64,000 nucleotides of DNA, taken from Comamonadaceae bacterium (GTDB lineage: Bacteria > Pseudomonadota > Gammaproteobacteria > Burkholderiales > Burkholderiaceae_C). The notes below the pieces were generated by a model. It saw nothing but the letters and a program-made list of their open reading frames with translations, was not told where the DNA came from and ran no database searches. A program made the position numbers and the translations under genes. The stretch lies in the NCBI GenBank assembly GCA_947447355.1, contig CANFJF010000001.1, positions 62,001 to 126,000 of the forward strand, given 5' to 3'. Shown here one piece after another: positions 2,683-17,727 of this stretch (position 1 is its first letter; the number at the start of each line of letters is the position of its first letter).

Positions 2683-3813
2683 TCAGGTTTCTGCTGGGCT
2701 GAGCTTGTGAAGACGTTCCATCGTTTCCAAGTACTCGAGTTGCATGCGATACATCACGTCTCGCACGCTGCTTTCTTCATTGATCATGCCAACCACCTGG
2801 CCGGCCGGGAACGAGTAAAGATCTTTGCGCTTAGCACGGACGACGCGCGCATGGGCTTCGTTGTACAAAATGCCTTGCAAGGGTGTCGGCAGGTACTCAG
2901 GGGCGCCGGGCGCTTCCCAGGCTTCTGACAAGCGACTTTTGATCATGCGCACGGTCTTGCCGGTGCGTGCTTTTCGCCGCACGGCGTCCTGTGCACGGGA
3001 GGCAAAGAGCGCTTCTTTTTCAAACGGGTCCAGTTCGCTTTCGGTGGTGCCCAGCCAGACGGTTCCGCACCAGACGCCTTGCGCACCGAGTGCCAGTGCC
3101 GCTGCAATCTGGCTGCCTTTGGCGATGCCACCAGCCGCCAGCACGGCGACTTCGTCACCACAAGCTTCGACCACTTGGGGCACCAACACCATGGTGGCGA
3201 TTTCGCCGGTGTGGCCACCAGCTTCCGTGCCTTGGGCGACGATCAATTGCACGCCAGCTTCCCTGTGGCGAGCCGCGTGTTCACCTTTGCCGCACATGGC
3301 GCCAATCATCACCTTGTGCTCACGCAGTTGCGCTACTACGTCCGGTGGCGGCGAGCCCAAGGCGCTGACCACCAGCTTGACCTGAGGATGCTTGAGTGTC
3401 ACCGCCAGCAGGCGACGTGCGCCATCGGGGGTCATGTTGCCGCGGCCATCGATGATTTCGCGGTGAATGCGTTCGCGCTCGTCAGCCGGCAGCTCGGGTA
3501 CGCCTTCAGCTTGCAAGAAATCGTCCATGAATGCCCGATGTTCTTGCGGGATCATGGTTTCCAAGTCGGCCGTCGTGGTTTCGGCTTCTTTGTCGTACTT
3601 GGTCGGGATGATCACATCCACACCGTAAGGGCGGCCGTTAACGTGCTGATCGATCCAGCGCAATTCGGCTTCAAGTTGTTCGGGCGAAAAAGTGGATGCG
3701 CCCAGCACGCCAAAGCCGCCGGCCTTGGTGACTTCAACCACAACATCGCGGCAATGAGAGAACGCAAAGATGGGCAATTCACAGCCCAATTTTTCACAGA
3801 GTGGGGTACGCAT
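2683..3813 (-). CDS. Nitronate monooxygenase-like FMN-dependent oxidoreductase
   Basis: The 376-residue protein resembles the NPD/2-nitropropane dioxygenase TIM-barrel family. It has an early PIFAFSHCRDVVVEVTKAGGFGVLG, a central IVAQGTEAGGHTGE that matches the flavin/substrate loop around the conserved histidine, and VLAAGGIAKGSQIAAALALGAQGV for phosphate binding. The family includes nitronate monooxygenases and flavin enoyl reductases, and many members inside acyl-CoA clusters have no proven nitronate activity. It sits between a Bug gene and the NDP-forming acyl-CoA synthetase, so a role on a CoA-bound intermediate is possible. The precise reaction is not assigned. Confidence 0.82.
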   Translation of the reverse strand: MRTPLCEKLGCELPIFAFSHCRDVVVEVTKAGGFGVLGASTFSPEQLEAELRWIDQHVNGRPYGVDVIIPTKYDKEAETTTADLETMIPQEHRAFMDDFLQAEGVPELPADERERIHREIIDGRGNMTPDGARRLLAVTLKHPQVKLVVSALGSPPPDVVAQLREHKVMIGAMCGKGEHAARHREAGVQLIVAQGTEAGGHTGEIATMVLVPQVVEACGDEVAVLAAGGIAKGSQIAAALALGAQGVWCGTVWLGTTESELDPFEKEALFASRAQDAVRRKARTGKTVRMIKSRLSEAWEAPGAPEYLPTPLQGILYNEAHARVVRAKRKDLYSFPAGQVVGMINEESSVRDVMYRMQLEYLETMERLHKLSPAET

Positions 3814-3854: not shown

Positions 3855-6062
3855 TCAGTGGGCGACAACGGCTGCCGCTGCCGTGACTTCTGATGCGTGC
3901 CAGACGAACAAGGCGTCCAGCGCCTCGACCTGGCTGCCGCGGACCCACAAGGGGTTGACGTCCAGCGCTTCGAGCTCTGGCCCGAGGTTCATGATGGCTT
4001 GCGCAATGCGTTCGATGGCGTTGGCCACAGCATCTAGGTCTGCAGCGGGAACGCCGCGTTGACCCGTCAGCAGCTTGGCGCCGCGCAGACCCGTCAGCAT
4101 GCGTTTGATTTCCCGCGCATCAACAGGCAGCGGCCGCAGCGCGACGTCCTGGAGGATTTCAACCCAGACGCCGCCCAGCCCGACCGCCAGCACCGGCCCC
4201 CATTGAGGATCACGGGTGTAGCCAACAAACAGTTCAATACCGCGCTCGCGCATGGGGGCCACGATGACGCCCTCGATATGCGCTGTCGGGCATTTCTCAC
4301 GGGCCGCTTGCAGCACCTGCAACGTGGCTTCGCGCACCGCGTCATCCCCCTGCAGATTCAGGACAACACCGCCGATGTCGCTTTTGTGGGCGATGTCCGG
4401 GGAGGCTACTTTGACCACGACTGAACCGCCCAATGCACGCGCTGCCGCAACGGCTTCATCAGCATGGCGGGCCAGTGTGGCAGGCACCACGGGAACACCT
4501 TGGCGCGCAAGAAATGCCAGCGCTTCATGCTCTGAGCGCGGACGAAGGCCTAGGTCTTGTGTGGGGGCTGCGGCGACGGTTGCTGTGGTTATGGCTGTCT
4601 TGGCGCTGGCGTGTTCGCGCTGACGCTGAGACCACCAAAAAGCCCCCGCTAGTCCGGTGAGCGCACGGTCCAGACCGCAAGCCAGGTAATTGGCGCCTGT
4701 TTCTGCAATGATCTTTCGCGAAAAATCATTCACCCGTGTGTTGGTGTAACTCACCAGCAGGCCGGGTATGGGCGCGGCGGCCAAGCCGGTCGCGAGATGC
4801 GCATGCAACTGGGTCAGCCGCTCGCTCATTTGAGCGGGTTCGTTGGGAATTTCATACCAAGGGCAGAGAATCGCCGCATGGTCAGTCTGAACGCCCAGAA
4901 TACGCACGACGTCTTCGCATTGCACCGGCGTGACGGAGCCCGTCAGATCCAGCGGATTGTGAACTGTGGCAATGTCCGGCAAATTCTTTTCTAACAGCGT
5001 TGCCGTAGCCGCTGAGATCGCTGGCAGTTGGATGCCGCGCAGGTCTGCCGTATCGGCTGCAATTTCTCCGACGCCGCCCGAATTGGTCAAGACGCACAAA
5101 CCGCCAGGCCGTAAAACGCCGGTCCGGCCGACGATGTCTGCGGTGGCCAGCAGGTCTTCCATTGAGCGCACGCGGATGATGCCGTATTGTTCGCAGATGC
5201 CTTCGAAGACGCGGTCGTCGCCGACTAACGCGCCGGTGTGGGCCATGGCTGATTGGGCGGTCACTTCGCTGGCGCCCACTTTCAGGATGACCAGTGGCTT
5301 CCCGATGGTCAGTGCGCGCTCGGCGACGCGGCGAAAGCGTTCAGGGTGCCTGAAGGTTTCGGCAAAGACCGCAATCGAATGTGTGTGGGGATCGTCTAAA
5401 AAGTAGTCGATGAAACTGGCCGCATCGAGATCGACTTCATTGCCGGTGGAGACGACATGGCTCAAACCGACATCCTGCTGGTGAGCCAGCGTCGACAAAA
5501 AATACGCGGTGGCGCCACTTTGGGAGACGATCGCCACGCCCGAATTGCGCGACGGTGCCATCACCTGCGTGGTCCAGGCGTAGGCCCGGTTGACAAAGTT
5601 GATGAAGCCCAAGCAATTGGGGCCAAGCAAGCGAATGCGGTGCTTGGCGGCCAGTTCGCGCAGGCTGTCCTGGAGCACTTGGCCAGCGCTGCCTGTTTCG
5701 GCAAAACCAGCCGTCACAATCACGGCAGATGTGCCACCCGCCGCGGCCAGGTCAACGATAGCGTCGCCTACTGCGGCTGCCGGCGTCATGATGAGTCCGA
5801 GGTCAATCTTTGCACCGACGGCGATACAGGACGTGGCGGTCTGGCGGCCATGGGCCAGTGCGCCACGGGGGTTGATCAGGTTCAAAGCCCCTTGGTAGCC
5901 GCCTTCGGTCAAGTTCTCAAAGGCAGTGCTCGACCAGCGTGAGCGGTCTGAAGCACCAATGATGGCAATTGATTGCGGTGTCAATAGAGCCGCGACAGCA
6001 TCACGGTTGACGCCGTCGATAGCGGATGTTTTGGCGGCGGTATCTTGTCTCTGAAGTGTCAA
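3855..6062 (-). CDS. NDP-forming acyl-CoA synthetase (acetate--CoA ligase family), single-chain
   Basis: The 735-residue protein carries a CoA-binding Rossmann domain (about residues 25-125, SIAIIGASDRSRWSS), succinyl-CoA-synthetase-like ligase domains (about 170-460) and a C-terminal ATP-grasp domain (about 500-720, GSVVVKVASPDIAHKSDIGGVVL). The motif MAHTGALVGDD at about residue 275 holds the histidine that is phosphorylated in this superfamily. Such enzymes form or break acyl-CoA with ATP/ADP exchange. Its start overlaps neither an RNA nor an odd site; its stop precedes the flavoprotein gene by about 40 bases, and its ATG overlaps the upstream Bug stop by four bases. The acyl substrate is unknown. 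Confidence 0.88.
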   Translation of the reverse strand: MTLQRQDTAAKTSAIDGVNRDAVAALLTPQSIAIIGASDRSRWSSTAFENLTEGGYQGALNLINPRGALAHGRQTATSCIAVGAKIDLGLIMTPAAAVGDAIVDLAAAGGTSAVIVTAGFAETGSAGQVLQDSLRELAAKHRIRLLGPNCLGFINFVNRAYAWTTQVMAPSRNSGVAIVSQSGATAYFLSTLAHQQDVGLSHVVSTGNEVDLDAASFIDYFLDDPHTHSIAVFAETFRHPERFRRVAERALTIGKPLVILKVGASEVTAQSAMAHTGALVGDDRVFEGICEQYGIIRVRSMEDLLATADIVGRTGVLRPGGLCVLTNSGGVGEIAADTADLRGIQLPAISAATATLLEKNLPDIATVHNPLDLTGSVTPVQCEDVVRILGVQTDHAAILCPWYEIPNEPAQMSERLTQLHAHLATGLAAAPIPGLLVSYTNTRVNDFSRKIIAETGANYLACGLDRALTGLAGAFWWSQRQREHASAKTAITTATVAAAPTQDLGLRPRSEHEALAFLARQGVPVVPATLARHADEAVAAARALGGSVVVKVASPDIAHKSDIGGVVLNLQGDDAVREATLQVLQAAREKCPTAHIEGVIVAPMRERGIELFVGYTRDPQWGPVLAVGLGGVWVEILQDVALRPLPVDAREIKRMLTGLRGAKLLTGQRGVPAADLDAVANAIERIAQAIMNLGPELEALDVNPLWVRGSQVEALDALFVWHASEVTAAAAVVAH

Positions 6063-7060
6063 AGTGCAATCCCCAATTTTTTAACGACCGGCGTCCAACG
6101 CGCAATTTCTGCCGCCACGTAAGCCCGTGCCTGAGCGGGGTTGGAGTTCGTGATGGGTTGAATGCCGAGCTGGTTGAGTCGCTCCAAAACCGAAGGGCGA
6201 CTCATCACTCGCGCGACGGCTTTCGAAATCGGTTCGATCACCTCAGGGGGCGTGCCGAGGGGCGCAGCCAGGAGGTTGCAGGTGCCCGCCAAAATATCGT
6301 AGCCAGACTCACGTGCGGTCGCAATGTCCGGGAGATTCTTTTCACGCGTTTCAGCCATCGTGGTGATGATGCGCAACTTGCCGGACTTATGGTGTGGCAT
6401 CAGCGTTCCCGAGGTTTCGACGATGAACTGGACGTTGCCTGCGATGGTGTCAATGATGGCCCCCGCACTGCCCGCATAGGCGATGTCCACCACATCAATG
6501 CCGGCGCGATCTTTGAACAACTCTGCCGCCAAGTGCACCGTGGTGCCGAGCCCAGCATGGCCGTAGGACATCTTGTTGGGACGCGCTTTGGCGTAGGCCA
6601 CCAGCTCTTTCAAGGTTGTCACCGGCAGTGCCGGATTGACGGCAATCACAAATGGTGCGTTGGACAGCAGGGCGATCCAGGTGAAGTCATCAACCGGGCT
6701 GTAGGGTGGCTTGGCTCTGGAGATGGGTGCGGAGATCGCTGTCGATCCGGTCGCCAGCATCAACTGGCTGCCATCTTTGGGGCTGCGCAGGAAACCAATG
6801 GCCACCGTCAAACCACCCGCACCGGGTTTGTTTTCAATCAAGACAGGACGCGAGAGTTCTTCGCGAAGCCCATCAGCCAGAATACGGGCGAATAAATCGC
6901 CAGAACCGCCTGGCGGAAATCCGACGGCAATTTTGATGGGGCTATCAGACGACTGTGCTGCTGCGGGGCTCAAGCCCAGTGTGGCGTTGGCAAGTGCCAG
7001 CGCACCACCGAGCATGATTTGCCGACGCCCATTTGACGTGCGATTATTTTGTTTGGTCAT
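6059..7060 (-). CDS. Bug-family (TctC-like) periplasmic substrate-binding protein
   Basis: The 333-residue protein starts with an arginine-pair leader (GRRQIMLGG) followed by a hydrophobic stretch and a PAAAQ cleavage-like site; this may be a Tat-type signal. The mature part has PIKIAVGFPPGGSGDLFARIL and MSYGHAGLGTTVHLAAELF, both typical of Bug receptors. It overlaps the acyl-CoA synthetase start by four bases (ATGA). A perfect inverted repeat lies upstream in the spacer toward the DUF35-like gene. No TctAB pair is nearby. The ligand is unknown. Confidence 0.89.
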   Translation of the reverse strand: MTKQNNRTSNGRRQIMLGGALALANATLGLSPAAAQSSDSPIKIAVGFPPGGSGDLFARILADGLREELSRPVLIENKPGAGGLTVAIGFLRSPKDGSQLMLATGSTAISAPISRAKPPYSPVDDFTWIALLSNAPFVIAVNPALPVTTLKELVAYAKARPNKMSYGHAGLGTTVHLAAELFKDRAGIDVVDIAYAGSAGAIIDTIAGNVQFIVETSGTLMPHHKSGKLRIITTMAETREKNLPDIATARESGYDILAGTCNLLAAPLGTPPEVIEPISKAVARVMSRPSVLERLNQLGIQPITNSNPAQARAYVAAEIARWTPVVKKLGIAL

Positions 7061-7167: not shown

Positions 7168-7623
7168 TTACTTGACTAGTTCAAACCAAAAATCCAGTAC
7201 ATCGCCGGTACGCTTTTCAGCGAAACGTGTGATCACAGGGGTACCAATGGCCAGTTGAGCAGCGGCCTTGGCGCCGTCGGTCAAATCTAGGCCCTTGAAG
7301 TAACCACCGATAGCGGTGTCTGCACCTTTGAGCAGCACATAGCCGAATGCATAAGGTGGGTCTGGCAGGTTGTTGAAGGCTTCGTAAACAATGGTGAAGC
7401 ACTCAATCGTGCCTTCCGGCCCGACCGCCACCCAGTCTTTGGTCGGCTCCAGTGTTTCATCCGAGAAAGCGCGTGGCGGCACCAACACCCGGCCTGATTT
7501 CGGGTCGCGGCGACCGTAGATCTGCTTGTTGTCGCGGATTTGGGTGAAGAAATAACTCGCAGTCTCCCCCAACGCGTGGTTGTAGGTGATGTTCCAGTTC
7601 TCGGTACGTGTCATCAGTTCCAT
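7168..7623 (-). CDS. DUF35-type OB-fold protein without zinc ligands, thiolase partner
   Basis: The 151-residue protein matches the DUF35/OB-fold pattern: a short N-terminal helix, a region where a zinc ribbon normally lies (GRRDPKSGRVLVPPRAFS), then an OB-fold with FTIVYEAFNNLPDPPYAFGYVLL. The four ribbon cysteines of the usual CxxC...CxxC are absent; only the VPPR segment that follows the ribbon survives. DUF35 proteins bind thiolase-fold partners and help present acyl-CoA. It lies 52 bases after a thiolase-fold gene, which fits a heteromeric complex. The family call is moderately strong; the activity is unknown. Confidence 0.72.
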   Translation of the reverse strand: MELMTRTENWNITYNHALGETASYFFTQIRDNKQIYGRRDPKSGRVLVPPRAFSDETLEPTKDWVAVGPEGTIECFTIVYEAFNNLPDPPYAFGYVLLKGADTAIGGYFKGLDLTDGAKAAAQLAIGTPVITRFAEKRTGDVLDFWFELVK

Positions 7624-7675
7624 GTTCGTGTCCTTGGTGATTCAGTTCAGTTGTTTAAATAGGGGGTGTATGAGA

Positions 7676-8854
7676 TCAGGCTTCGACAACCATGGTGCCG
7701 AAGAATTGGTGGTCGCCACCGTTGCCGCTGGCAATGCCGCGCTTGGCACCTTTGACTTGGTGGCCACCAGCGCGACCCCAGACCTGCAAGGCGACCTCGG
7801 CAACCCGCACCATGGCCGTTACAGCAATGGCGTTTGCGCACAGTGTGCCGCCCGAGGGGTTGACCGGGTTTTGACCGCCGATCTTAAAGTAGCCTTCGCG
7901 CAGCATCTTGGGTGACTGGCCGAGCTTGGCCAGTCCCGCCGCTTCAATCGCGTGAAACTCGGTATTGCTGAATGGTGAGTACATTTCCGCGACGTCGATT
8001 TGTTTGGCTGGGTCGGTGATGCCGGCCATCTTGTAGGACGCGTGGCAGGCTTCGCCAAGCGCCTTGGCATCCGCATGATCGGCAGTGAAGCCGTTGCCCA
8101 TGCGGTCGCCCATGAAGTAGCTTTCAGAGTTGTGCGCGACACCGGTGATCCAGACGGCTTCCAACTTGTTGTCGCGAATGTAGTCTTCCGAAGCCAGCAC
8201 CATGGCGCAGCCGCCGCTCGATTGCGGGCAGGCGTCAAACAGCTTGATAGGCCACGAGACCATGCGCGAGGCCATGACTTCTTCAATGGTGGTGAGTTTG
8301 CGCAAGTGAGCGTTCGGGTTGAGCGACGCGTGGTATCGGTTCTTTACGACAATGCTGGCCATGTCTTCTTGGGTCATGCCGTACTTGTGCATGTAGCGAA
8401 TAGCCGACATCGCCAACATGGTGATGGTGCCCAGGGGCAGGGCGCGCTCGTAGGCGGGGTCCCAGATCTTGTTCAGAATGGTTTGCGAGTCACCGCATTC
8501 ACCGACCTTGTCAGCGCCGGCCACCAACACCACTTCACAAGCACCAGCAGCAATGTGCGAGTGCGCCGCTGCCAGGGCTGAGAGTCCGGTTGAGCCGCCG
8601 GTGTTGATGCGCATGAAACGCTTGTTGCGTGCGCCCACGGCGTCCACACCAAGGCGTTCTGCATTGCCAATGCCGAGCAGTGCATCCGGTGCCAGCGAGT
8701 ACACCACGGCATCGATCTGGTCGAGCGCCATCTTGGCGTCATTCATGCACAGCGTGACGGCCTCTCGCACCAGTTCGGTGTAGTTGGCGTCCGGGCGCTT
8801 GGCCTTGAACTGGGATTGACCAATCCCTACGATTCCAACGCGTGGCACTTTCAT
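7676..8854 (-). CDS. Thiolase-fold (SCP2/SCP-x-like) protein lacking the nucleophilic cysteine
   Basis: The 392-residue protein has the two-lobed thiolase fold of the lipid-transfer/SCP-x branch. At the position of the classic nucleophile (usual pattern NAACASGG) it reads INTGGSTGLSAL, so cysteine is replaced by glycine at about residue 87. The GHP histidine motif is also missing: the C-terminal segment is VNPSGGTLCANAIAV. A tyrosine is present in VAEMYSPFS at about residue 292, where Ltp2-type aldolases carry a catalytic tyrosine. It overlaps the upstream thiolase-like gene by four bases and precedes a DUF35-like gene. It is probably not a true thiolase; a retro-aldolase or scaffold role is inferred. 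Confidence 0.82.
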   Translation of the reverse strand: MKVPRVGIVGIGQSQFKAKRPDANYTELVREAVTLCMNDAKMALDQIDAVVYSLAPDALLGIGNAERLGVDAVGARNKRFMRINTGGSTGLSALAAAHSHIAAGACEVVLVAGADKVGECGDSQTILNKIWDPAYERALPLGTITMLAMSAIRYMHKYGMTQEDMASIVVKNRYHASLNPNAHLRKLTTIEEVMASRMVSWPIKLFDACPQSSGGCAMVLASEDYIRDNKLEAVWITGVAHNSESYFMGDRMGNGFTADHADAKALGEACHASYKMAGITDPAKQIDVAEMYSPFSNTEFHAIEAAGLAKLGQSPKMLREGYFKIGGQNPVNPSGGTLCANAIAVTAMVRVAEVALQVWGRAGGHQVKGAKRGIASGNGGDHQFFGTMVVEA

Positions 8855-10020
8855 TGAGTTATCTCCTTGGGTTCGTGGCCGAACACGACCACGGTGTTGT
8901 ATTGCATGGCAAAGCCGCTGGCACCATGGGCCACCGTCCGGCGCACGCCGGCTTTTTGGTGAACACCAGCGCAGCCTCGCGACTGATTGGCGGCTTCAGC
9001 AATGCGCATGAGGCCGCTGCAAAAGATCGGGTTGTATGAGATAGCGCCACCTGACAGATTGGTCGGCAAAGTGCCGGCTGCAGCGAACTCGCCGGTCTCG
9101 GTGGCTTTGACCCACTGGGTGCGCTCGCACAGGCCCAAGCCTTCAAGTGCCAGCAGTTCCTGGTAAGCCGTGGCATCTGCCACCTCAGCCAGGTCAAAGG
9201 CTTGCTTGGGCTGCGTGATACCGGCTTCTGCGTAGGCTTGTTTGGCCGAGGCGGCAAGCGAAGGCACCGTGGCCAGATCTCGGTCACCCAGAAAAGCGGT
9301 TTCGGTGGCCCAACCCATGCCGTGCAGCCAAGCGACGTTTTTGCATTTTTTCTCAGCGATCCATTCGTCACTGGCCAGCACCATGGCGACGGCACCAAAG
9401 CTGGATTTGCTGACCATGCCTGCGGTCAGTGGCCAGCGCAGCATTTTGCCGCCTGCGATCGTCACCCGTTCTTGCGGGAAGGCAGAAAGATGAGGGTAAG
9501 CGACGGCACCTTGATGACGATTTTTCACGGTGATCGACAAAGCTGCTTCACGCAAGCCTGGCACCTGGGCTTCAAGCGCATTGGCCTGTAACGCGTGTGA
9601 TGCCAAGTCGTCCAACGGCAGGGCACGGTGAAAGTACGGGTCGTTGCTGAGTCGCTGTGTTTCGTTGATGTCGGCGGTTTCCGCTGGGTTCCACGAGACC
9701 ACCAACTGGGTTTTGTACATGCCCGAACGAACACGCAGGGCGCCCAGCACAAATGCATGTTCGCTGGATGATGGGGTCGACAGGATGTCGCGACCTACAC
9801 CACCCACCGAACCGGAGGCCATCATGATCGAGATGGCGCGACCGTCGAGCTGGTCATTGCCAGCGACGACGATGCCATCAATTTCTTCAATCGTCATATT
9901 TGCGTCGCGCAGGGCTTGCTGCACAACCGCATGCAAGGACTCTTCCAGATAAGCCTGCTCGGGGTGTCGGGGTGCGTACATGACGCTTCCGATGACCCCG
10001 ACCTGAGGTCGTTTTTGCAT
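8851..10020 (-). CDS. Thiolase-fold protein lacking the nucleophilic cysteine
   Basis: This 389-residue protein belongs to the same thiolase branch as its neighbour. The N-terminal lobe opens with RPQVGVIGSVMYAPR and the nucleophile region reads STPSSSEHAF, with serines where cysteine is expected (about residues 84-86). The C-terminal block TNLSGGAISYNPIFCSGLMRIAEA lacks GHP. The tyrosine seen in VAE(I/M)Y of the other two is not conserved here (LAEVADATAYQE). It may therefore be a non-catalytic subunit paired with the next gene, to which it is coupled by ATGA overlap. It is the first gene of this minus-strand run, facing the divergent CaiB gene. Confidence 0.8.
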   Translation of the reverse strand: MQKRPQVGVIGSVMYAPRHPEQAYLEESLHAVVQQALRDANMTIEEIDGIVVAGNDQLDGRAISIMMASGSVGGVGRDILSTPSSSEHAFVLGALRVRSGMYKTQLVVSWNPAETADINETQRLSNDPYFHRALPLDDLASHALQANALEAQVPGLREAALSITVKNRHQGAVAYPHLSAFPQERVTIAGGKMLRWPLTAGMVSKSSFGAVAMVLASDEWIAEKKCKNVAWLHGMGWATETAFLGDRDLATVPSLAASAKQAYAEAGITQPKQAFDLAEVADATAYQELLALEGLGLCERTQWVKATETGEFAAAGTLPTNLSGGAISYNPIFCSGLMRIAEAANQSRGCAGVHQKAGVRRTVAHGASGFAMQYNTVVVFGHEPKEITQ

Positions 10021-10089
10021 TTTCCACCTTCCAAATGGTTCAAGTTACCGCTGAAAAATGTTAATTTCAAGTGCCGCTTATTATTCGGT

Positions 10090-10119
10090 ATTTCGAAATT
10101 AACTACAAGTTTTCGAAAT
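10090..10119. promoter_or_regulatory. Two TTTCGAAAT palindromes 20 bp apart, possible operator
   Basis: ATTTCGAAAT (10090-10099) and TTTTCGAAAT (10110-10119) share the 8-bp palindrome TTTCGAAA and are exactly 20 bp apart, about two helical turns. They lie 70-100 bases upstream of the thiolase-like gene starting at 10020 and in the divergent spacer to the CaiB gene at 10252. This is the arrangement expected for cooperative binding of two regulator dimers on one DNA face. The regulator is not known. Confidence 0.45.
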
Positions 10120-10186
10120 CATAGCACGTGATGTTGCGCTTGAATTTCTTTTCTGATGACCTTTGAAGCTCATGACATGACTCTTC

Positions 10187-10214
10187 TTGAGAGGCGCAAA
10201 CGTCGGTATATACT
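10187..10214 (+). promoter_or_regulatory. Putative sigma-70 promoter for the CaiB/BaiF gene
   Basis: TTGAGA (10187-10192) and TATACT (10209-10214) are separated by 16 bases and lie 38 bases before the ATG at 10252. The inverted repeat TTCTA-AA-TAGAA starts 17 bases after the -10 element, so a bound repressor there could block early elongation. The match is reasonable but not proven. Confidence 0.45.
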
Positions 10215-10224
10215 TGCTGGTACA

Positions 10225-10242
10225 AATTTATTCTAAATAGAA
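10225..10242. promoter_or_regulatory. Inverted repeat TTCTA-AA-TAGAA within a motif shared with the other operon, possible TetR operator
   Basis: AATTTATTCTAAATAG here closely matches AATTTATTCTTAATGG at 21059-21074, upstream of the second operon. This copy contains a 5-2-5 perfect inverted repeat TTCTAAATAGAA (10231-10242) just before the CaiB start codon. Presence at two promoters of one island and the encoded TetR regulator (11417-12115) suggest a shared operator. The second copy is not symmetric, so this remains tentative. Confidence 0.4.
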
Positions 10243-10251
10243 AATTTCAGT

Positions 10252-11406
10252 ATGACAAAACTTCCTTTGTCCGGCGTGCGAATTCTCAGCTTGGCTGAGC
10301 AGTACCCGGGACCCTATGCCGGCATGTTGCTGGCGGACATGGGCGCCGATGTGATTCTTGTCGAGAGACCTGGCAGCGGGGATCCGTCACGGCGATTCCC
10401 TGGCTTGTTTGCATCGTTCAACCGCAACAAACGTTCGGTGGTACTGGACTTGAAATCGGAAGAGGGACGCGCCTCTTTCCTCGAACTGGTCGATTCCGCC
10501 GATGTCGTGATGGAGGGTTTTCGCCCTGGTGTGATGGACCGACTCAAGCTCGGCGCTGAAGCGCTCAGACTGCATAAGCCGGACCTGGTGTTCGTGTCGA
10601 TCTCTGCATTTGGTCAGAACGGGCCGTTGTCCGGTGTGGCGGGTCACGACCTGAGTATTCAGGCTGCAGCCGGTTTGGTGCAAGTGCCCATTGGACAAGA
10701 GGCTCAAGCGCCGTTGCCGATGTTGCCCCTAGGCGACATTGCGTCGGCCATGTTCGCTGCTTTGGGCGTTGTCACGGCTCTGTTTGCGCGGAAAAGTTCG
10801 GGCAACGGGTCGACGCTGGATGTTTCCATGCTTGATTCACTTGTGAGTTGGATGACGCCGTTTCTGATGCCGCCCATGAACAAGCTGCCAACCCGTGAAT
10901 TGCCACCGCTAGACCCTGGCTACGGTATTTTTCTGACCGCCGACAGCCGTCAAATCACGCTCAGCATCGCCGGTGAAGACAGCATGTGGATGGCGCTTTG
11001 TAATATTCTCTCGCTGCCTCAATTTGCCGATTTGAACGAGGATCAGCGCAGCTCGAGAAGCAAAGAGATCACGCCCTGTTTACGCGAAGCGATTGCCAAG
11101 CAGCCGTTTGAACGTCTTTATCAGCAACTGAAAGATCATTCGATTGCCTTCGGCCCTGTACTGGGTCTTGACGAAGTGCTGAAGGATCCGCAGATGATTG
11201 TTCGCGGCATGACGCAAACGCTGGAGACTGCTGAGGGTAAACAAAAATACGTCAGGCAGCCGATTTTGATGGATGGTCAAGGAGGACTCATCAATCGCTT
11301 ACCGCCGGCATTGGGTCAGCACAACGAAGAACTGTTGGCGCATGCAAAAAAGCCGGCTGCTCATACCGCCCAATCGAAGCTATTGCTGGTGGCGAATCAA
11401 AAATGA
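10252..11406 (+). CDS. CaiB/BaiF family CoA-transferase
   Basis: The 384-residue protein opens with the class III CoA-transferase pattern GVRILSLAEQYPGPYAGMLLADMGADVILVERPGSGD and has FNRNKRSVVLDLKS. The catalytic aspartate is probably in LPLGDIASAM (about residue 161), followed by GNGSTLDVSMLDSLVSW. The family moves CoA between acyl groups in the cytosol. It is the only plus-strand gene of the island, transcribed away from the thiolase-like gene at 10020 and converging on the TetR gene, with 10 bases between the stops. No clear Shine-Dalgarno sequence precedes the ATG. Confidence 0.9.
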   Translation: MTKLPLSGVRILSLAEQYPGPYAGMLLADMGADVILVERPGSGDPSRRFPGLFASFNRNKRSVVLDLKSEEGRASFLELVDSADVVMEGFRPGVMDRLKLGAEALRLHKPDLVFVSISAFGQNGPLSGVAGHDLSIQAAAGLVQVPIGQEAQAPLPMLPLGDIASAMFAALGVVTALFARKSSGNGSTLDVSMLDSLVSWMTPFLMPPMNKLPTRELPPLDPGYGIFLTADSRQITLSIAGEDSMWMALCNILSLPQFADLNEDQRSSRSKEITPCLREAIAKQPFERLYQQLKDHSIAFGPVLGLDEVLKDPQMIVRGMTQTLETAEGKQKYVRQPILMDGQGGLINRLPPALGQHNEELLAHAKKPAAHTAQSKLLLVANQK

Positions 11407-11416
11407 GGCTGGGGCG

Positions 11417-12115
11417 TCACAGTGGTCGTTTGGCTTTCACCATGTTCAATACCAAGGTGGCGATTTTGTCGGCGGTCTCAGCCTGCGTCAGGCGACCGTC
11501 AGCGCGGTACCAGACATAGGACCAGCTGATGATGCCGCCGATAGCCAGAGAGGTGATCTTGACATCATCGACCTCGAATTCGCCGGCTGATACCCCCGCG
11601 GTGAGCAGTGTAAAAATTTTCCTGTCGAATTCGCGGCGCATGTTGTCGATGGCGGCGCTGTCTTCGGTTGACAGGTGTTTTTGCTCACGGTTGTAAATGG
11701 CGATGTGGCCCTGATTCTCAATCACGGCCAGCATGAAGTCGCGGGCTAAATGATGCAGTTTGTCAGTTGGCGACAGATCAGTTGCCACAACCCGGTTGAG
11801 AACATCGAGTGAGGCACGAATCCCGCGGGAGCATATTTCAGCCAGCAAAGCATGCTTCGACTTGAAGTGTGAATAAATGAATGGTTTGGTGACATTCATT
11901 TTTTCTGCCACCGCTTCGAGCGTTGTGTTGCTCAAACCGTTGTGGTGAAAAAGTTCGACGGCCGTGGCGATGATGCGTTCGCGTTTGAGTCTTGAGACTG
12001 CGTCACGAATATCTTCTTCGACATTCAGATCAGCCCCATCAGCAGGGTGTTCAGGCAGACTTCGTTTGGACGTCTTTGTGGCGCTCAACACCTTTGGTTT
12101 GAGTTTTTTAATCAT
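11417..12115 (-). CDS. TetR family transcriptional regulator
   Basis: The 232-residue protein has an N-terminal extension of about 40 charged residues, then a TetR helix-turn-helix (about residues 45-90: RIIATAVELFHHNGLSNTTLEAVAEKMNVTKPFIYSHF in outline) and a helical ligand-binding domain. It follows the zinc-ribbon DUF35 gene by 20 bases and is the last gene of the 21029-11417 minus-strand run, so it is probably cotranscribed with the genes it controls. Related regulators respond to acyl-CoA or aromatic ligands. The shared AT-rich motif at 10225 and 21059 is a candidate target. Confidence 0.9.
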   Translation of the reverse strand: MIKKLKPKVLSATKTSKRSLPEHPADGADLNVEEDIRDAVSRLKRERIIATAVELFHHNGLSNTTLEAVAEKMNVTKPFIYSHFKSKHALLAEICSRGIRASLDVLNRVVATDLSPTDKLHHLARDFMLAVIENQGHIAIYNREQKHLSTEDSAAIDNMRREFDRKIFTLLTAGVSAGEFEVDDVKITSLAIGGIISWSYVWYRADGRLTQAETADKIATLVLNMVKAKRPL

Positions 12116-12135
12116 GCTTTCTCTGTCTGGCGACG

Positions 12136-12558
12136 CTATGCGATTGGATTATGGCGGTTGGCAACAGGTCGAAAAACAAGATCGATCCCATCTTCACGTG
12201 TCTCAAATTGGCCATGCACCGGGAGATCAAGTGAGGGCGGGATATCGCTTCGCCATACGCCAAGCGCCCGAACACCCTCTTCAAGATCAATTGTGACAAG
12301 TGTATAGGGTAGATCCGCGGCGAAGCCTGGGTGAAAGGCGTGGTGGGCAACTGTCCAACTGTGCACCTTGCCGCGGCCACTGGCATCTTTCCAAATGACA
12401 GCGTCTGAATAGCAATGACTGCACAGAAGTTGTGGATAGTGCCGTTTCCGCCCGCACTCGGCGCAGCACTGCAAGCTTAATCGACCTTCTGCCGCTGCAT
12501 CCCAGTAGGGGCGTGACATGGCCGATGGCTCTGGGATAGGTTTGAGTATTTTTTCCAT
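12136..12558 (-). CDS. Zinc-ribbon OB-fold protein (DUF35), partner of thiolase-fold protein
   Basis: The 140-residue protein has an N-terminal helix ending in SRPYWDAAAEGRL, a rubredoxin-like zinc ribbon with C32-x2-C35 and C46-x2-C49, and an OB-fold that starts with the segment VHSWTVAHHAFHP. This is the complete DUF35 architecture seen in ChsH2-type partners of Ltp2-type aldolases. It begins five bases after the stop of the thiolase-fold gene at 12564, as expected for subunits of one complex. Its intact ribbon contrasts with the zinc-less homologue at 7168. The specific substrate is unknown. Confidence 0.88.
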   Translation of the reverse strand: MEKILKPIPEPSAMSRPYWDAAAEGRLSLQCCAECGRKRHYPQLLCSHCYSDAVIWKDASGRGKVHSWTVAHHAFHPGFAADLPYTLVTIDLEEGVRALGVWRSDIPPSLDLPVHGQFETREDGIDLVFRPVANRHNPIA

Positions 12559-12563
12559 AAGAG

Positions 12564-13718
12564 TTATTCCCCTCGCATGATGGCCAAAGCGCCATCACCT
12601 TGGTCGCCGTAACCTGTGACCAGACCGACCTTGGCATTGGCCACTTGGGCGCGTCCGGCATCGCCGCGTAACTGTCGGACCAATTCGACGATGTGGTTCA
12701 GCCCCCAAACGTGGGCCTGCGAGAGCAGTCCGCCGTGCGTATTGGTGGGCAAGGCACCGCCCAAACGCAGACGTCCGCCCGCGACAAAGGGCCCGCCTTC
12801 GCCTTTTTCGCAAAAACCCATGTCTTCAAACTGGCGAATGACAGCGTAAGTGAAGCAGTCATAAATTTCGGCTACTTGGATGTCAGCATGTGTGAAGCCG
12901 CTCATCTCAAAAGCGCGTGGCGCAGCTTTGGCGATGCCCAAGCTGGTCATGTCTGGCCGTTGCGTGATGGATCCTGGTGAGTCGGGATGACCGGTAGCCA
13001 CGCCAGAGATAAAGACTCGTTTGTGGCGTAGATCAGCAGCCTGCGGGGCTGCGCTGACAACAATGGCCGCACCGCCATCGCTTTCCAGGCTGCAATCCAG
13101 CAGACGGAAGGGGTCGGCGATCATCCGCGAGTTGCGGTGGTCTTCCAGTGTGATGGGCTTTTTCATCACGGCATTGCCGTTGAGCAGCGCGTGCTCGCGG
13201 CAGGCCACTGCCACCTCGCCAAAATGCGCGACAGTGGTGCCGTAAAGCTCCATGTGTCGGCGTGCCATCGGGGCGTAGAGTTGTGCAGGAGCAATCGCCC
13301 CCATGGGGTATTCGAACTCGGTCACAAAATGGAACTGCGGCATTTGGTGAATGCGTGCGCCCGCCTTGTTGGAAGCTGCTGTGACATTGCGTCCGAAAGT
13401 GATCAGCACGTGCTTGCAAACGCCGGCGGCAATAGCTGAAGCGGCTGCTTGCAAAGCCATCGTCGGGCTGGCACCGCCGTGCGGGATCAAGGCCGAAAAA
13501 CGCAAGTCGGGTAGACCGAAGTTGTCAATGAAGTCGTCGGCTGTGCCGCTTATCAGACCGATCGGGATCACGCCATCGATGTCTTTGGGCGTCAGCCCTG
13601 CGTCTGCAATCGCTTTGAGCGAGGATTCGATCTGCAACTCGAAGGCGGTCTTGGTCGAGCCCCGCATGTAGACGGTTTCGCCAATACCGGTGACGCAGGC
13701 TTTGTCTGAAAGCGACAT
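12564..13718 (-). CDS. Ltp2-like thiolase-fold protein, probable CoA-ester aldolase or lyase
   Basis: The 384-residue protein is a lipid-transfer-type thiolase homologue. The nucleophile position reads IPHGGASPTM (glycine for cysteine, about residue 81), and the C-terminal block is LPTNTHGGLLSQAHVWGLNH without GHP. VAEIYDCFTYAVI places a tyrosine at residue 286, matching the catalytic tyrosine region of Ltp2, the mycobacterial steroid side-chain aldolase that works with the DUF35 protein ChsH2. The neighbouring gene is exactly such a DUF35 protein. The fold call is firm; retro-aldol cleavage is inferred from family and context, and the second Ltp2 tyrosine is not obvious here. Confidence 0.82.
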   Translation of the reverse strand: MSLSDKACVTGIGETVYMRGSTKTAFELQIESSLKAIADAGLTPKDIDGVIPIGLISGTADDFIDNFGLPDLRFSALIPHGGASPTMALQAAASAIAAGVCKHVLITFGRNVTAASNKAGARIHQMPQFHFVTEFEYPMGAIAPAQLYAPMARRHMELYGTTVAHFGEVAVACREHALLNGNAVMKKPITLEDHRNSRMIADPFRLLDCSLESDGGAAIVVSAAPQAADLRHKRVFISGVATGHPDSPGSITQRPDMTSLGIAKAAPRAFEMSGFTHADIQVAEIYDCFTYAVIRQFEDMGFCEKGEGGPFVAGGRLRLGGALPTNTHGGLLSQAHVWGLNHIVELVRQLRGDAGRAQVANAKVGLVTGYGDQGDGALAIMRGE

Positions 13719-15062
13719 TTATGCCTCCCCTTTGTTCAAATTTTGAGCCGCCGTTGTCGCCGCACTGGCACGACCCCGAGTGCGTTGCCTGGCAATTTGC
13801 TTGCGATAAAAGATGGGATCCAGTTCCAATGCATAGCGGGTGCTGCCCGGGAAATGCTTGGTCAGGTACTTTTGCTCTTCTTCCATGGCGAGGTTCATCT
13901 GCGAAAGATCGGGCAAGGTCTGATCGCCACAGACCAACTCGGTGACCCACTCGGCTTGGTCGTCCATCATGCGGATGTTGCCGCCACCGGCCACATTGAA
14001 CAGGCCAGTGAAATAAAGACCGCTTTCGGTCGGGTGCACAACGCGCAGGTAAAGCTTGACCCGGTGACCATCCATCGGTCGCATGTCGGGGGCCAGAAAT
14101 GGCAGACTGACCGAGTACCCGGTTCCCGCAATGATGCTGTCAAAGGTTTCCTTGCTGCCGTCGAGAAAGGTCACTTCTTGACCATTGACAGATTGGATGC
14201 CCGGCTTGGCCCGGATGCGGTTCCAGACCATGTGCGCCATCAAGGTCGGGTGGCTGGTTGGGTGGGTACGCTTCTTAGGTGTCGTGAAGCCCCATTGCTC
14301 CATACGGCCATAGATGATGCGCACCAGTATTTCGCGAATCGTGCGGCGGACCGGCCAAGGCATCCAAGACTTTTCAAGCAGAGCCAGGGCCCGCGAGTTC
14401 GGCAGACCAAACAACATGCGCGGCATCACCAGCACCGGCGAGCGGGCGGAAATCATGGTCGACTCAGTGACCACACAGATGTCTGCTGCGATATCAACGG
14501 CGCTGTTGCCCATGCCCACCACCAGCACGCGTTTGTCGCGGAAAGGCTCCGGGATACGGTAGGTGTGCGAGTGCAGATACTCGCCCTTAAATTCATCCCG
14601 CCAGGTTGGATGCGTCGGCACACTTTGATGCCCGCTGCCAATCACCACGGCGTCGAACGTGTCGACACTGCCGTCCGCCAGACGAACCTGCCAGCTGCCT
14701 TCATGCTTCGCCACATTCTCTACTTTAGAGTTGAAACGGATGTATTGAATGATGTTGAAATGGGCCGCATAAGCTTCTAAGTAGCGCCGCATGCCTGCAT
14801 GATCCGGGTACAACGGGCCACCTTCCGGAAACGGGAAATCCTTGTAGGCCGTGACGGCCACTTCTGAGTTCAGATGCAGACTCTTATAAGCCGGCGCCAT
14901 GCCGTTGTCGTTGTTGTAAACCCAGAGTCCGCCGATGCACGAGCCCATTTCATACACCACCACCTTGACACCACGTGCGAGAAGGTGCTTAGCCGCGCAC
15001 AGGCCGGCAGCACCCGCGCCGATCACGGCGACCCGTTTTTGAAGTTGTTCAGTCGTTTGCAT
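13719..15062 (-). CDS. Flavin-containing monooxygenase (FMO/Baeyer-Villiger-like)
   Basis: The track starts at 15098, but the ATG at 15062 (MQTTEQLQ) has an AGAGGTG ribosome-binding site and places the FAD motif VIGAGAAGLCAAKHLL right at the N-terminus, so it is preferred (447 residues). FKGEYLHSHTYRIP fits the FMO fingerprint and GMGNSAVDIAAD is the NADPH-binding motif. A short hydrophobic segment lies in the middle of the chain. The family inserts one oxygen atom using FAD, NADPH and O2. Its stop abuts the Ltp2-like gene start. A hydroxylation or ester/lactone-forming step in the pathway is plausible; the substrate is unknown. Confidence 0.86.
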   Translation of the reverse strand: MQTTEQLQKRVAVIGAGAAGLCAAKHLLARGVKVVVYEMGSCIGGLWVYNNDNGMAPAYKSLHLNSEVAVTAYKDFPFPEGGPLYPDHAGMRRYLEAYAAHFNIIQYIRFNSKVENVAKHEGSWQVRLADGSVDTFDAVVIGSGHQSVPTHPTWRDEFKGEYLHSHTYRIPEPFRDKRVLVVGMGNSAVDIAADICVVTESTMISARSPVLVMPRMLFGLPNSRALALLEKSWMPWPVRRTIREILVRIIYGRMEQWGFTTPKKRTHPTSHPTLMAHMVWNRIRAKPGIQSVNGQEVTFLDGSKETFDSIIAGTGYSVSLPFLAPDMRPMDGHRVKLYLRVVHPTESGLYFTGLFNVAGGGNIRMMDDQAEWVTELVCGDQTLPDLSQMNLAMEEEQKYLTKHFPGSTRYALELDPIFYRKQIARQRTRGRASAATTAAQNLNKGEA

Positions 15063-15144
15063 CAGAATGCACCTCTCAAAAAATAAAATAAAGCTCAACC
15101 TACCGCTATCAGAAGCCCACTCGGACGTGATGAGTACAGCTGAC

Positions 15145-16743
15145 TCAGACCTTGCTGGCAGTTAACTCGCTCACTCGACGTGCCGCTAATTTTTTCAGCT
15201 CATTGCGCTGCAGCTTGCCCGTCACCGTCAGCGGTAAGCTCTCGCAGACTTCAATATGGTCTGGCAGTTTGTACTTGGAGGCTTCTTTGGCGCAATGCAG
15301 GCTCAGCGCCTCCAAGTCAACGGTTCCAGGCGAGACAGGGACAACAAAAGCAAAGATGCGCTCGCCGCGCGCCACATCAGGCACGCCGACTACAGCCGCT
15401 TCTTGCACTGAAGGGTGGCGCCGCAGCACTTCTTCTACTTCGGCTGGTGAGACGTTGATACCTGCACGCTTGATCATTTCGCTGATTCGGCCAACAAAGA
15501 CGAAGTCACCATCGGCATTGAACATGCCCATGTCACCGGTCTTGTAGTAGCCGTCATCAGAAAATGTTTTTGCATTTTGAGCCGCACTTGCGCCGCTGTA
15601 GCCGTGGGTGATATAGCCGCGTACTTCGGTCAAGCCGGGCGTGCCGGCCGGAACGATTGCCCCCGTGATTTCGTCTACAAATCGCATTTTCTGCCCCGGC
15701 AATGGAGGACCTTGGCAATGCGCCCGTCTTTCCAAAGGCCAGTGGTGCCACGTGACGGCGCAATTGCCGTAGGTCTCGGTCGCGCCATAGACATTGCACA
15801 GTTCTGCTGCACCCAGTTTCTCGACTGCAAACAGAAAGTCTTCGGGGCTGCCGATCATCAGGCCGGTACGCAGGCTGCTCAGACGCTTGGCTTGGTAGCT
15901 TGGATGACGGACCAGCGCAGAGGTCATGGCGGGCAGGGTGTAAATGGATGTGCAGCGTTCTTCTTCAATCGCAGTCAAGGCGAGTGCGGGGTCAAAGCGC
16001 TCCATCAGCACCAGTGTTGCGCCGTGTGAGAACGTTGCCGGCAACGCATTGGCGCCACCGAAAGCCCAGAACAGCGGGGCCGCCAGCAGGACGCGGTCGG
16101 AGGCGGTGAGTCCCTGACGCTCGCCGATGTTGAAGCCATTTTCAATCAACGCAAATTGCTGTAGCGGTACAGACTTAGGAGCACTGGTGGAGCCCGAGGT
16201 GTAGAGGATGAGTACGTCGTCACCCGCACTTGAACCGTCCCCGGGGGGGGCGACTTCTTGCGGAGTAGCGCTACTCACCTGAATAGCAAAGTCTGGAAAC
16301 TGACCCAGTTCGCCGTCGATCAACCAATTCCGTTCCATCGATGGCATGCCTGGCGCATCTTTCAGAGCCACCAAGTCGGCCTCGAAATGACTGTCGCCAA
16401 AACGGGCTGCCGTGACCAGCAATGACAGCTCAGAATCTTTCAGTAGAACGGCCAACTCTGCCCGCGTTGACCAAGAGCTGAGCGGTACGGTCACCGCGCC
16501 GACAGCGCCAGCGCCCAAACAGACATCAATCCACTCAACCCGGTTGCTCATCAACAGGCCAACACGATCGCCGCGCCGGATACCCAGTGCGTGCATGGCG
16601 CCGGCCACCTGCGCTGCACGTGCCGCTAAGTCGGCGTAACTGAAACGACCCTGCGGGCAGACCAAGGCGGTCTGGTTAGGTGCGCGATCTGCTTGTTCGC
16701 GTACCAAATCAATCAACGTTCGGGAATAAGGTGGCGTCATCAT
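15145..16743 (-). CDS. AMP-forming acyl-CoA synthetase/ligase
   Basis: The 532-residue protein is a class I adenylate-forming enzyme. The P-loop reads ILYTSGSTSAPKSVPL (SA in place of the common TG), followed later by YKTGDMGMFNADGDFVFVGRISEMIKRAG in outline and the C-terminal VTGKLQRNELKK with the catalytic lysine. It would activate a carboxylic acid to its CoA ester with ATP. It starts three bases after the stop of a Bug receptor gene, linking uptake and activation. It probably makes the entry CoA-thioester of the pathway; the acid is not known. Confidence 0.9.
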   Translation of the reverse strand: MMTPPYSRTLIDLVREQADRAPNQTALVCPQGRFSYADLAARAAQVAGAMHALGIRRGDRVGLLMSNRVEWIDVCLGAGAVGAVTVPLSSWSTRAELAVLLKDSELSLLVTAARFGDSHFEADLVALKDAPGMPSMERNWLIDGELGQFPDFAIQVSSATPQEVAPPGDGSSAGDDVLILYTSGSTSAPKSVPLQQFALIENGFNIGERQGLTASDRVLLAAPLFWAFGGANALPATFSHGATLVLMERFDPALALTAIEEERCTSIYTLPAMTSALVRHPSYQAKRLSSLRTGLMIGSPEDFLFAVEKLGAAELCNVYGATETYGNCAVTWHHWPLERRAHCQGPPLPGQKMRFVDEITGAIVPAGTPGLTEVRGYITHGYSGASAAQNAKTFSDDGYYKTGDMGMFNADGDFVFVGRISEMIKRAGINVSPAEVEEVLRRHPSVQEAAVVGVPDVARGERIFAFVVPVSPGTVDLEALSLHCAKEASKYKLPDHIEVCESLPLTVTGKLQRNELKKLAARRVSELTASKV

Positions 16744-16746
16744 TTA

Positions 16747-17727
16747 TCAGTCCAGTTTGGCGCCAGTCAACTCAACCATCGTCTTCCACTTCACGCGCTC
16801 GCGTTCGGCAAAGGCAAAGGTTTCTTGCGGCGTTGTGGAGACGGTGCGGGCACCGCCTTCGAGGAAACGTTTTTGCACGGCTGGATCTGCGGCAATTTCT
16901 TTGATCGCTTCTGACAGCTTGGTGACGATGGCCGCCGGCGTCCCTTTGGGCAGCACAAAGGCACCCCAGGACGTGATGATGAAATCCTTGATGCCGACTT
17001 GCCCCATTGTGGGAACTTCAGGCAGAGTTGGCCAACGCTCGGACGATGTCACGGCCAAAGCTTTGACCTTGCCGGCTTTGATCAGCGGCATGTAGCTGGC
17101 GATGTTGTCGATTGCAAAATCGGTATCGCCAGCCATCAATGCTGGCATCGACTGTGCTGCACCGCGGTAAGGAACGTGCAATGTTTTGAGTCCATTGCGG
17201 GCGCCAAACAATTCACCCGCCAAGTGGGGCGTGGTGCCGACGCCCGCTGAACCGAAGGTCACGCCTTGTGGTTGTTTTTTGGCCCAAGCCAAAAATTCTT
17301 GAGCAGTTTTTGCCGGATGCTTGGGGGACACGACGAGGACGTTGCAGTTCTCCCAAATCATCGATGAGTAGTCGAAATCGCGAACCGGGTCATAGCTCAG
17401 CTTCGAAAAGAGAAACTGGTTGATAGACAGCGTTCCGATCGTGGCTGAAGAGATGGTGTAGCCGTCAGCCGGTGCCGTGCGAACAGCTTCCATGCCGATG
17501 TTGCCACCTGCGCCTGTTCGGTTGTCGACGACGAAGTTTTGACCAAATTTGCTCGTTAGTCTCTCCGCAACCAAGCGGGTCAGCAGATCTGATGCGCCTC
17601 CCGCCGTGAACGGCACGATGATCTTGACCGGGCCAGTTGGCCAGTTGGTTTGGGCGTGTCCCAATTGGAAGGTCATGGCGGCACCAGTAGCGATGGCGGA
17701 TTGGATTAGTTTGCGGCGTGAGATCAT
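16747..17727 (-). CDS. Bug-family (TctC-like) periplasmic substrate-binding protein
   Basis: The 326-residue protein begins MISRRKLIQSAIATGAAM, an arginine-pair leader of Tat-like type, with a QLGHAQ cleavage-like site. The mature part has GPVKIIVPFTAGGASDLLTRLV and VTFGSAGVGTTPHLAGELF, diagnostic of Bug receptors. It is the third orphan receptor in the island and sits directly before the acyl-CoA ligase, so its ligand may be the acid that this ligase activates. No TctAB genes are present. Confidence 0.9.
   Translation of the reverse strand: MISRRKLIQSAIATGAAMTFQLGHAQTNWPTGPVKIIVPFTAGGASDLLTRLVAERLTSKFGQNFVVDNRTGAGGNIGMEAVRTAPADGYTISSATIGTLSINQFLFSKLSYDPVRDFDYSSMIWENCNVLVVSPKHPAKTAQEFLAWAKKQPQGVTFGSAGVGTTPHLAGELFGARNGLKTLHVPYRGAAQSMPALMAGDTDFAIDNIASYMPLIKAGKVKALAVTSSERWPTLPEVPTMGQVGIKDFIITSWGAFVLPKGTPAAIVTKLSEAIKEIAADPAVQKRFLEGGARTVSTTPQETFAFAERERVKWKTMVELTGAKLD

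Follow-up and report, generated by a model that had tools for sequence, protein, structure and literature searches.

Two predicted thiolase-fold retro-aldolases with DUF35 partners in a gene cluster of a Comamonadaceae genome

Results and Discussion

A gene island in a 64,000-nucleotide window of a Comamonadaceae genome (assembly GCA_947447355.1, contig CANFJF010000001.1, positions 62,001 to 126,000 of the forward strand) appears to encode two thiolase-fold retro-aldolases that would act on 3-hydroxyacyl-coenzyme A (CoA) and serve the degradation of a small carboxylic acid, probably a branched or alicyclic one, a reading to which we assign a probability of roughly two in three. The window belongs to a 3.95 Mb draft genome of a betaproteobacterium. 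Complex 1 would be a heteromer of the Ltp3/Ltp4 type formed by ThlA, ThlB and DUF35a, with the active site in ThlA, and complex 2 would consist of ThlC, a predicted enzyme of the Ltp2 clade, and DUF35b. A first-pass annotation of the window had already proposed two aldolase-type complexes, one of them a heteromer with a probably non-catalytic subunit, and this proposal finds good support in the residues, the tree, the synteny and the pathway logic. The reading frames of the five proteins, to which we gave these working names, are all open:

7168 to 7623, minus strand: DUF35a, OB-fold protein without zinc ribbon, putative scaffold of complex 1 (Pfam OB_ChsH2_C 1e-7, no zf-ChsH2)
7676 to 8854, minus strand: ThlA, putative catalytic subunit of complex 1, Ltp3-type (Gly87 at the nucleophile site, Tyr292, Asn341; Thiolase_C_1)
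8851 to 10020, minus strand: ThlB, degenerate partner subunit, Ltp4-type (four-residue nucleophile-loop deletion, Ala281 for Tyr; Thiolase_C_1)
12136 to 12558, minus strand: DUF35b, zinc-ribbon OB-fold partner of ThlC, 140 residues (Pfam OB_ChsH2_C and zf-ChsH2)
12564 to 13718, minus strand: ThlC, Ltp2-clade aldolase candidate (Gly82, Tyr286-Asp-Cys288-Phe, His336; Thiolase_C_1)

Active-site residues

Alignment with thiolases and aldolases of the Protein Data Bank (PDB) revealed that the nucleophile cysteine column is occupied by Gly87 in ThlA and Gly82 in ThlC, and that in ThlB it falls inside a nucleophile loop that is four residues shorter. The histidine column of the thiolase HDxF motif holds Tyr292 in ThlA (VAEMY), Tyr286 in ThlC (VAEIY) and Ala281 in ThlB, while the histidine column of the GHP motif holds Asn341 in ThlA and Asn330 in ThlB and is lost in ThlC. 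None of the three residues of the SCP2-type thiolase triad (nucleophile Cys, HDxF His and GHP His) is present in ThlA, ThlB or ThlC. The missing cysteine, the missing GHP motif and the tyrosine kept in two of the three proteins had all been noted in the first-pass annotation and were borne out by the alignment, in which the two tyrosines occupy the same column as the catalytic tyrosine of Ltp2 and Sal. When the alignment was enlarged to 52 sequences, all nine rows with the nucleophile cysteine had histidine at the HDxF site, and 31 rows paired glycine at the nucleophile site with tyrosine at the HDxF site; judged from these rows, the Cys-to-Gly and His-to-Tyr exchanges are coordinated.

A single ThlA scan of GTDB contigs returned 42 loci, 33 of which encode a ThlA of at least 57% identity. 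Gly87, Tyr292, Asn341 and the D381-H382-Q383 loop are invariant across these 33 ThlA sequences, as are Gly82, Tyr286, Cys288 and His336 in 13 ThlC orthologs, so that these active-site residues are not due to chance. Cys288, overlooked in the first-pass annotation, lies two residues past Tyr286 in the YDCF motif of ThlC and aligns with the acid that the Sal aldolase uses in catalysis, Cys304; YDCF or YDCFS, with His, also occurs in related proteins of Rhodococcus and Sphingobium. ThlA has proline at the position of the ThlC and Sal cysteine or the Ltp2 histidine, which leaves its general acid at the candidate stage, the candidates being Cys339 and the D381-H382-Q383 loop.

ThlB conserves S84, H88, W110, D127, R132, W237, N330 and P331 in the 33 sequences, and its tyrosine column drifts. 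The four-residue loop deletion is common to all B-type sequences, with the reservation that Rhodo_B and Simpl_B are short, and the B protein of a myxobacterium (deltaproteobacterial) still has the tyrosine. Given the group-wide deletion and the lost tyrosine, ThlB is probably a non-catalytic partner subunit.

The absence of the cysteine is less exceptional than the first-pass annotation implied, as Cys-less, tyrosine-type relatives are frequent. In the same genome, all seven other thiolase-fold paralogs examined lack the nucleophile cysteine (six have tyrosine, one histidine), so its absence is frequent within this superfamily branch and unremarkable by itself. Of these seven paralogs (L001-L005, L007 and L008), several are close to PDB 4u4e, with YDAF or YDSF.

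Similarity of complex 1 to Ltp3/Ltp4

In a maximum-likelihood tree of 35 sequences, with supports given as paired values, ThlA formed a clade (99/95) with A-type proteins of Simplicispira, Rhodococcus, Nocardia, Streptomyces and one deltaproteobacterial (Myxococcota) genome. The B-type proteins, including ThlB, split from all other sequences at 96/95; Rhodo_B formed a very long branch, and its placement is unsure. The comparison with Ltp3/Ltp4 used the Nocardia and Streptomyces proteins as stand-ins for the mycobacterial sequences. Both pairs score far above the PRK08313 and PRK07937 cut-offs of NCBIfam, and the Nocardia triad adjoins an F420 oxidoreductase of the Rv3520c family; the published gene listing reads Rv3520c, Rv3521, ltp4 (Rv3522) and ltp3 (Rv3523) (PMC6429209). 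On these cut-offs and this synteny, we took the pairs as Ltp3/Ltp4 orthologs. Ltp3/Ltp4 are described as aldol lyases of C24-branched sterol side chains (PMC4761994; PMC6593523), and our literature search turned up neither biochemical nor structural work on them.

In both systems, neighboring B-type and A-type genes of the thiolase fold are accompanied by a DUF35 gene, and ThlA falls in the Ltp3 clade and ThlB in the Ltp4 group with its loop deletion; Ltp3-type proteins also resemble ThlA in having the tyrosine in YxPF and asparagine in place of the GHP histidine. However, identity between ThlA and the actinobacterial proteins is just 34-37%, ThlB has lost the Tyr/His column, complex 1 has one DUF35 domain instead of two, and no steroid context is recognized in the cluster. 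ThlA and ThlB also stay below the NCBIfam cut-offs (302.8 versus 514 bits for PRK08313 and 107.7 versus 419 for PRK07937, respectively), which makes them relatives rather than orthologs of Ltp3/Ltp4. By sequence comparison, ThlA, ThlB and DUF35a belong with the Ltp3/Ltp4/Rv3521 triad, a type reported as aldol lyases. The first-pass comparison of the island with Ltp2-ChsH2 thus held for ThlC, which falls in the Ltp2 clade, but not for these three proteins.

Similarity of complex 2 to Ltp2 and Sal

In the same tree, ThlC formed a group (97/92) with TcLtp2 (PDB 6ok1) and the C protein of Simplicispira, separate from Sal. In TcLtp2, the YDHF tyrosine acts as base and Tyr344 as acid, whereas in CtSal, Tyr302 and Cys304 are the catalytic pair (PMC12329534). 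ThlC resembles Ltp2-ChsH2 in its glycine at the nucleophile site, the tyrosine of YDxF and a DUF35 partner with a C4 zinc ribbon. In contrast, it has YDCF instead of YDHF and His336 at the Tyr344 column, DUF35b is a stand-alone protein, and the hydratase is of the crotonase type, with no MaoC hydratase family among the cluster genes. ThlC shares Tyr286-Asp287-Cys288 with the Sal-Shy system (CtSal, PDB 9myr), although it lies outside the Sal branch and the DUF35b ribbon is C4, not C3H1.

Two further systems were compared. IpfD/IpfE of ibuprofen degradation, a thiolase-like protein and its partner, have been assigned to retro-aldol release of propionyl-CoA (PMC9195938); the likeness, by description only, is an assigned retro-aldol release outside steroid pathways, and the difference is that the window cluster has no ring dioxygenase. 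Thiolases with a DUF35 partner share the fold of the window proteins but retain the nucleophilic cysteine, HDxF and GHP.

DUF35 partners and zinc

As the first-pass annotation had stated, the ThlA and ThlC genes are each directly followed by a DUF35 gene, and coordinates and the Pfam ChsH2 OB-fold agree on this. Both DUF35a and DUF35b have the OB-fold, and only DUF35b has the zf-ChsH2 zinc ribbon (C32-x2-C35-x10-C46-x2-C49). In DUF35a of the window all four zinc cysteines are absent, and its proteobacterial orthologs have at most one cysteine at the ribbon positions, while the Rokubacteria ortholog (L059:5761-6180) retains all four (CPAC and CDRC); the zinc ribbon of DUF35a was therefore probably lost within this clade. 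The Rokubacteria locus combines this four-cysteine DUF35a with a ThlB that has the tyrosine, a possible intermediate before the proteobacterial losses. Among the Rv3521 equivalents, the Nocardia protein has two DUF35-like halves, neither with cysteines, and the Streptomyces protein has cysteines in the second half only. These actinobacterial Rv3521-type proteins (L073:6911-7933 and L074:6916-7935) resemble tandem DUF35 units with cysteines missing in one or both.

Conservation and distribution of the triad

DUF35a directly follows ThlA in 33/33 loci, and ThlB directly precedes ThlA in 32 of them, the 33rd beginning inside ThlA at a contig end; the ThlB-ThlA-DUF35a adjacency is accordingly found in 32/32 complete orthologous loci. 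In the window, the ThlB and ThlA genes overlap by 4 bases, which suggests translational coupling. The hosts are beta- and alphaproteobacteria and one Rokubacteria genome. In the closest named loci, from metagenome-assembled Comamonadaceae and Polaromonas, ThlA is 97-99% identical and the gene order is the same. In a sample of 300 genomes of the order, no genome other than that of the window gave a match at E < 1e-80, and the distribution of the cluster is patchy. Mean identity to the window proteins was 79% for ThlA, 77% for DUF35a and 60% for ThlB; by this measure, ThlB evolves faster than the other two.

Structure models

Single-chain AlphaFold models were made of ThlA (mean pLDDT, predicted local distance difference test, of 81; pTM, predicted template modeling score, of 0.87) and ThlB (mean pLDDT 82, pTM 0.87). 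Both match SCP2 thiolases, archaeal thiolases, BbsB, Ltp2 and Sal. Low-confidence loops were present at about residues 56-83 and 114-136 in ThlB and at 119-141 in ThlA, and in the models these loops likely border the pocket.

Cluster genes and proposed pathway

The remaining genes of the cluster are as follows:

1 to 678, minus strand: crotonase (enoyl-CoA hydratase), cut by the window edge (76% identity to the orthologous crotonase of locus L055)
1706 to 2665, 6059 to 7060 and 16747 to 17727: three TctC-type solute-binding proteins
2683 to 3813, minus strand: NMO-family flavoprotein (Pfam NMO 2e-39)
3855 to 6062, minus strand: ADP-forming acyl-CoA ligase (Pfam ATP-grasp_5, Succ_CoA_lig)
10252 to 11406, plus strand: CaiB/BaiF family III CoA-transferase (Pfam CoA_transf_3 1e-93; recurs in orthologous loci)
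11417 to 12115, minus strand: TetR-family regulator (Pfam TetR_N, TetR_C_24; recurs in orthologous loci)
13719 to 15098, minus strand: flavin monooxygenase, FMO (Pfam FMO-like 7e-64; FMO-type fingerprint FxGxxxHxxxY)
15145 to 16743, minus strand: AMP-forming acyl-CoA ligase (Pfam AMP-binding)
17772 to 18932, minus strand: acyl-CoA dehydrogenase (Pfam; under every NCBIfam equivalog cut-off)
18945 to 20147, minus strand: second family III CoA-transferase (Pfam CoA_transf_3 1.7e-110)
20154 to 21029, minus strand: cyclase-family (PF04199) hydrolase (Pfam 9e-26)

The CoA-transferase at 10252 and the TetR gene lie between the two modules. The crotonase is complete in the source genome and in locus L075. 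Pfam also identified an SMP-30 lactonase-like protein, and no TctA/TctB membrane partners for the three TctC proteins were found among the annotated cluster genes.

In the proposed pathway, the ligases or CoA-transferases would form the acyl-CoA, which the acyl-CoA dehydrogenase would desaturate and the crotonase hydrate; cleavage would then yield a short acyl-CoA together with either a ketone or an aldehyde, with no 3-keto intermediate on the way. In complex 1, Tyr292 of ThlA would act as the base on the beta-hydroxyl, and either Cys339 or the D381-H382-Q383 loop might serve as acid; ThlB would be a degenerate structural or substrate-shaping partner and DUF35a a zinc-less scaffold. In complex 2, Tyr286 would probably be the base and Cys288 the acid, as in Sal. 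Pfam found neither a 3-hydroxyacyl-CoA dehydrogenase nor a member of the short-chain dehydrogenase/reductase (SDR) family among the cluster genes, which fits retro-aldol cleavage, since a thiolase pathway needs such a dehydrogenase and a retro-aldolase pathway does not. Related clusters carry ATP-binding cassette (ABC) transporters of the branched-chain-amino-acid type or tripartite ATP-independent periplasmic (TRAP) transporters, which makes a small carboxylate the probable substrate. No steroid-specific genes turned up in the cluster or among the recurrent neighbors tested, the rest of the genome not having been searched. A 1-hydroxycyclohexylacetyl-CoA lyase activity is known from older literature; cyclohexylacetate as substrate would fit the pathway logic, and our literature search found nothing on it and no gene proves it. 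A Baeyer-Villiger step on the released ketone is not claimed, as the FMO beside ThlC has FxGxxxHxxxY and not the W-P/D form.

A more specific version, which we advance tentatively and consider rather doubtful, is that ThlA-ThlB-DUF35a is an obligate asymmetric aldolase with one active site per pair, the partner tyrosine and the scaffold zinc having been lost within the proteobacterial clade, and that with ThlC it would make two retro-aldol cuts in a small branched or alicyclic acyl-CoA, on a non-steroid route without assigned lyase genes.

Alternative explanations

The window proteins could be ordinary thiolases that draw their nucleophile from another cysteine, such as Cys288 of ThlC, which is invariant, or Cys339 of ThlA, a position that is cysteine in most ThlA orthologs. 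We rejected this explanation on the active-site residues and regard it as very improbable: Cys288 aligns with the general acid of Sal, whose nucleophile column is glycine and for which thiolysis was excluded by the authors (PMC12329534), the Cys339 position is occupied by Ser or Thr in Ltp3-type relatives from Nocardia, Streptomyces and Rhodococcus, and the HDxF histidine and GHP motif are gone as well. It is unlikely that complex 1 is a two-activity enzyme with a second active site rebuilt in ThlB from S84, H88, R132, W237 and N330. The invariance of these residues despite fast overall divergence, and the tyrosine of the myxobacterial B protein, would fit such a site, but ThlB has lost the tyrosine, the nucleophile loop and the GHP histidine, its conserved residues may serve a dimer or DUF35 interface, and the regions at about 56-83 and 114-136 are poorly predicted. 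Another C-C reaction of the same fold, namely aldol or acyl condensation or decarboxylation in the biosynthetic direction, is improbable too. Acyltransferases such as PhlABC do occur among thiolase-fold and DUF35 assemblies, and TbSLP decarboxylates malonyl-CoA, albeit slowly, whereas CtSal does not (PMC12329534); yet PhlC-type enzymes rely on a cysteine nucleophile, and the cluster is a catabolic set of uptake proteins, CoA activation, dehydrogenase and hydratase.

Several points weigh against two retro-aldolases. Related Simplicispira and Rhodococcus clusters do contain SDRs, and a dehydrogenase may be encoded elsewhere in this genome. The activity and the complexes, with their subunit roles and order of steps, are predictions from residues, family placement and gene order; the models are single chains with low-confidence cap loops and are silent on complex formation; the ThlA acid stands at the candidate stage; and the evidence found for Ltp3/Ltp4 is genetic. 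On balance, the earlier interpretation was right in kind and is partly supported.

Thiolase-fold aldolases have been characterized mainly in steroid and bile acid breakdown, and the window cluster is, from its sequences, most likely a non-steroid variant of this known type. It is a conserved, patchy cluster that combines both known architectures, an Ltp2-like enzyme and an Ltp3/Ltp4-like pair, and it offers small systems for testing Ltp3/Ltp4-type catalysis. If correct, our reading would point to this chemistry as a general way of handling the beta-branched acids whose thiolysis is beyond ordinary beta-oxidation, and many proteins that now go by the names acetyl-CoA acetyltransferase, lipid-transfer protein or transporter would have to be renamed.

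Related clusters on plasmids

A Rhodococcus plasmid carries a dehydrogenase, CoA-transferases, an FMO, ThlC (67%), DUF35b, a crotonase, a ligase and a cyclase with no close ThlA/ThlB, which indicates that the two complexes are separable modules; the literature search gave no substrate lead for its host, Rhodococcus sp. ZPP. An operon-like stretch of a Simplicispira suum plasmid (L071, 6535-13839) encodes an Ltp3/Ltp4-like pair with a zinc-ribbon DUF35, an Ltp2-like protein with a DUF35, and a Cys-containing thiolase. On plasmid pF2 of Sphingobium yanoikuyae SJTF8 (L078, 7785-20189), a ThlC relative is annotated as 'transporter'. Its neighbors are a P450, an NMO, two acyl-CoA dehydrogenases, a flavin adenine dinucleotide (FAD) protein with a Baeyer-Villiger fingerprint and an alpha/beta hydrolase, and this cluster carries the W-P form of the Baeyer-Villiger motif (FAGERHHTAHWP).

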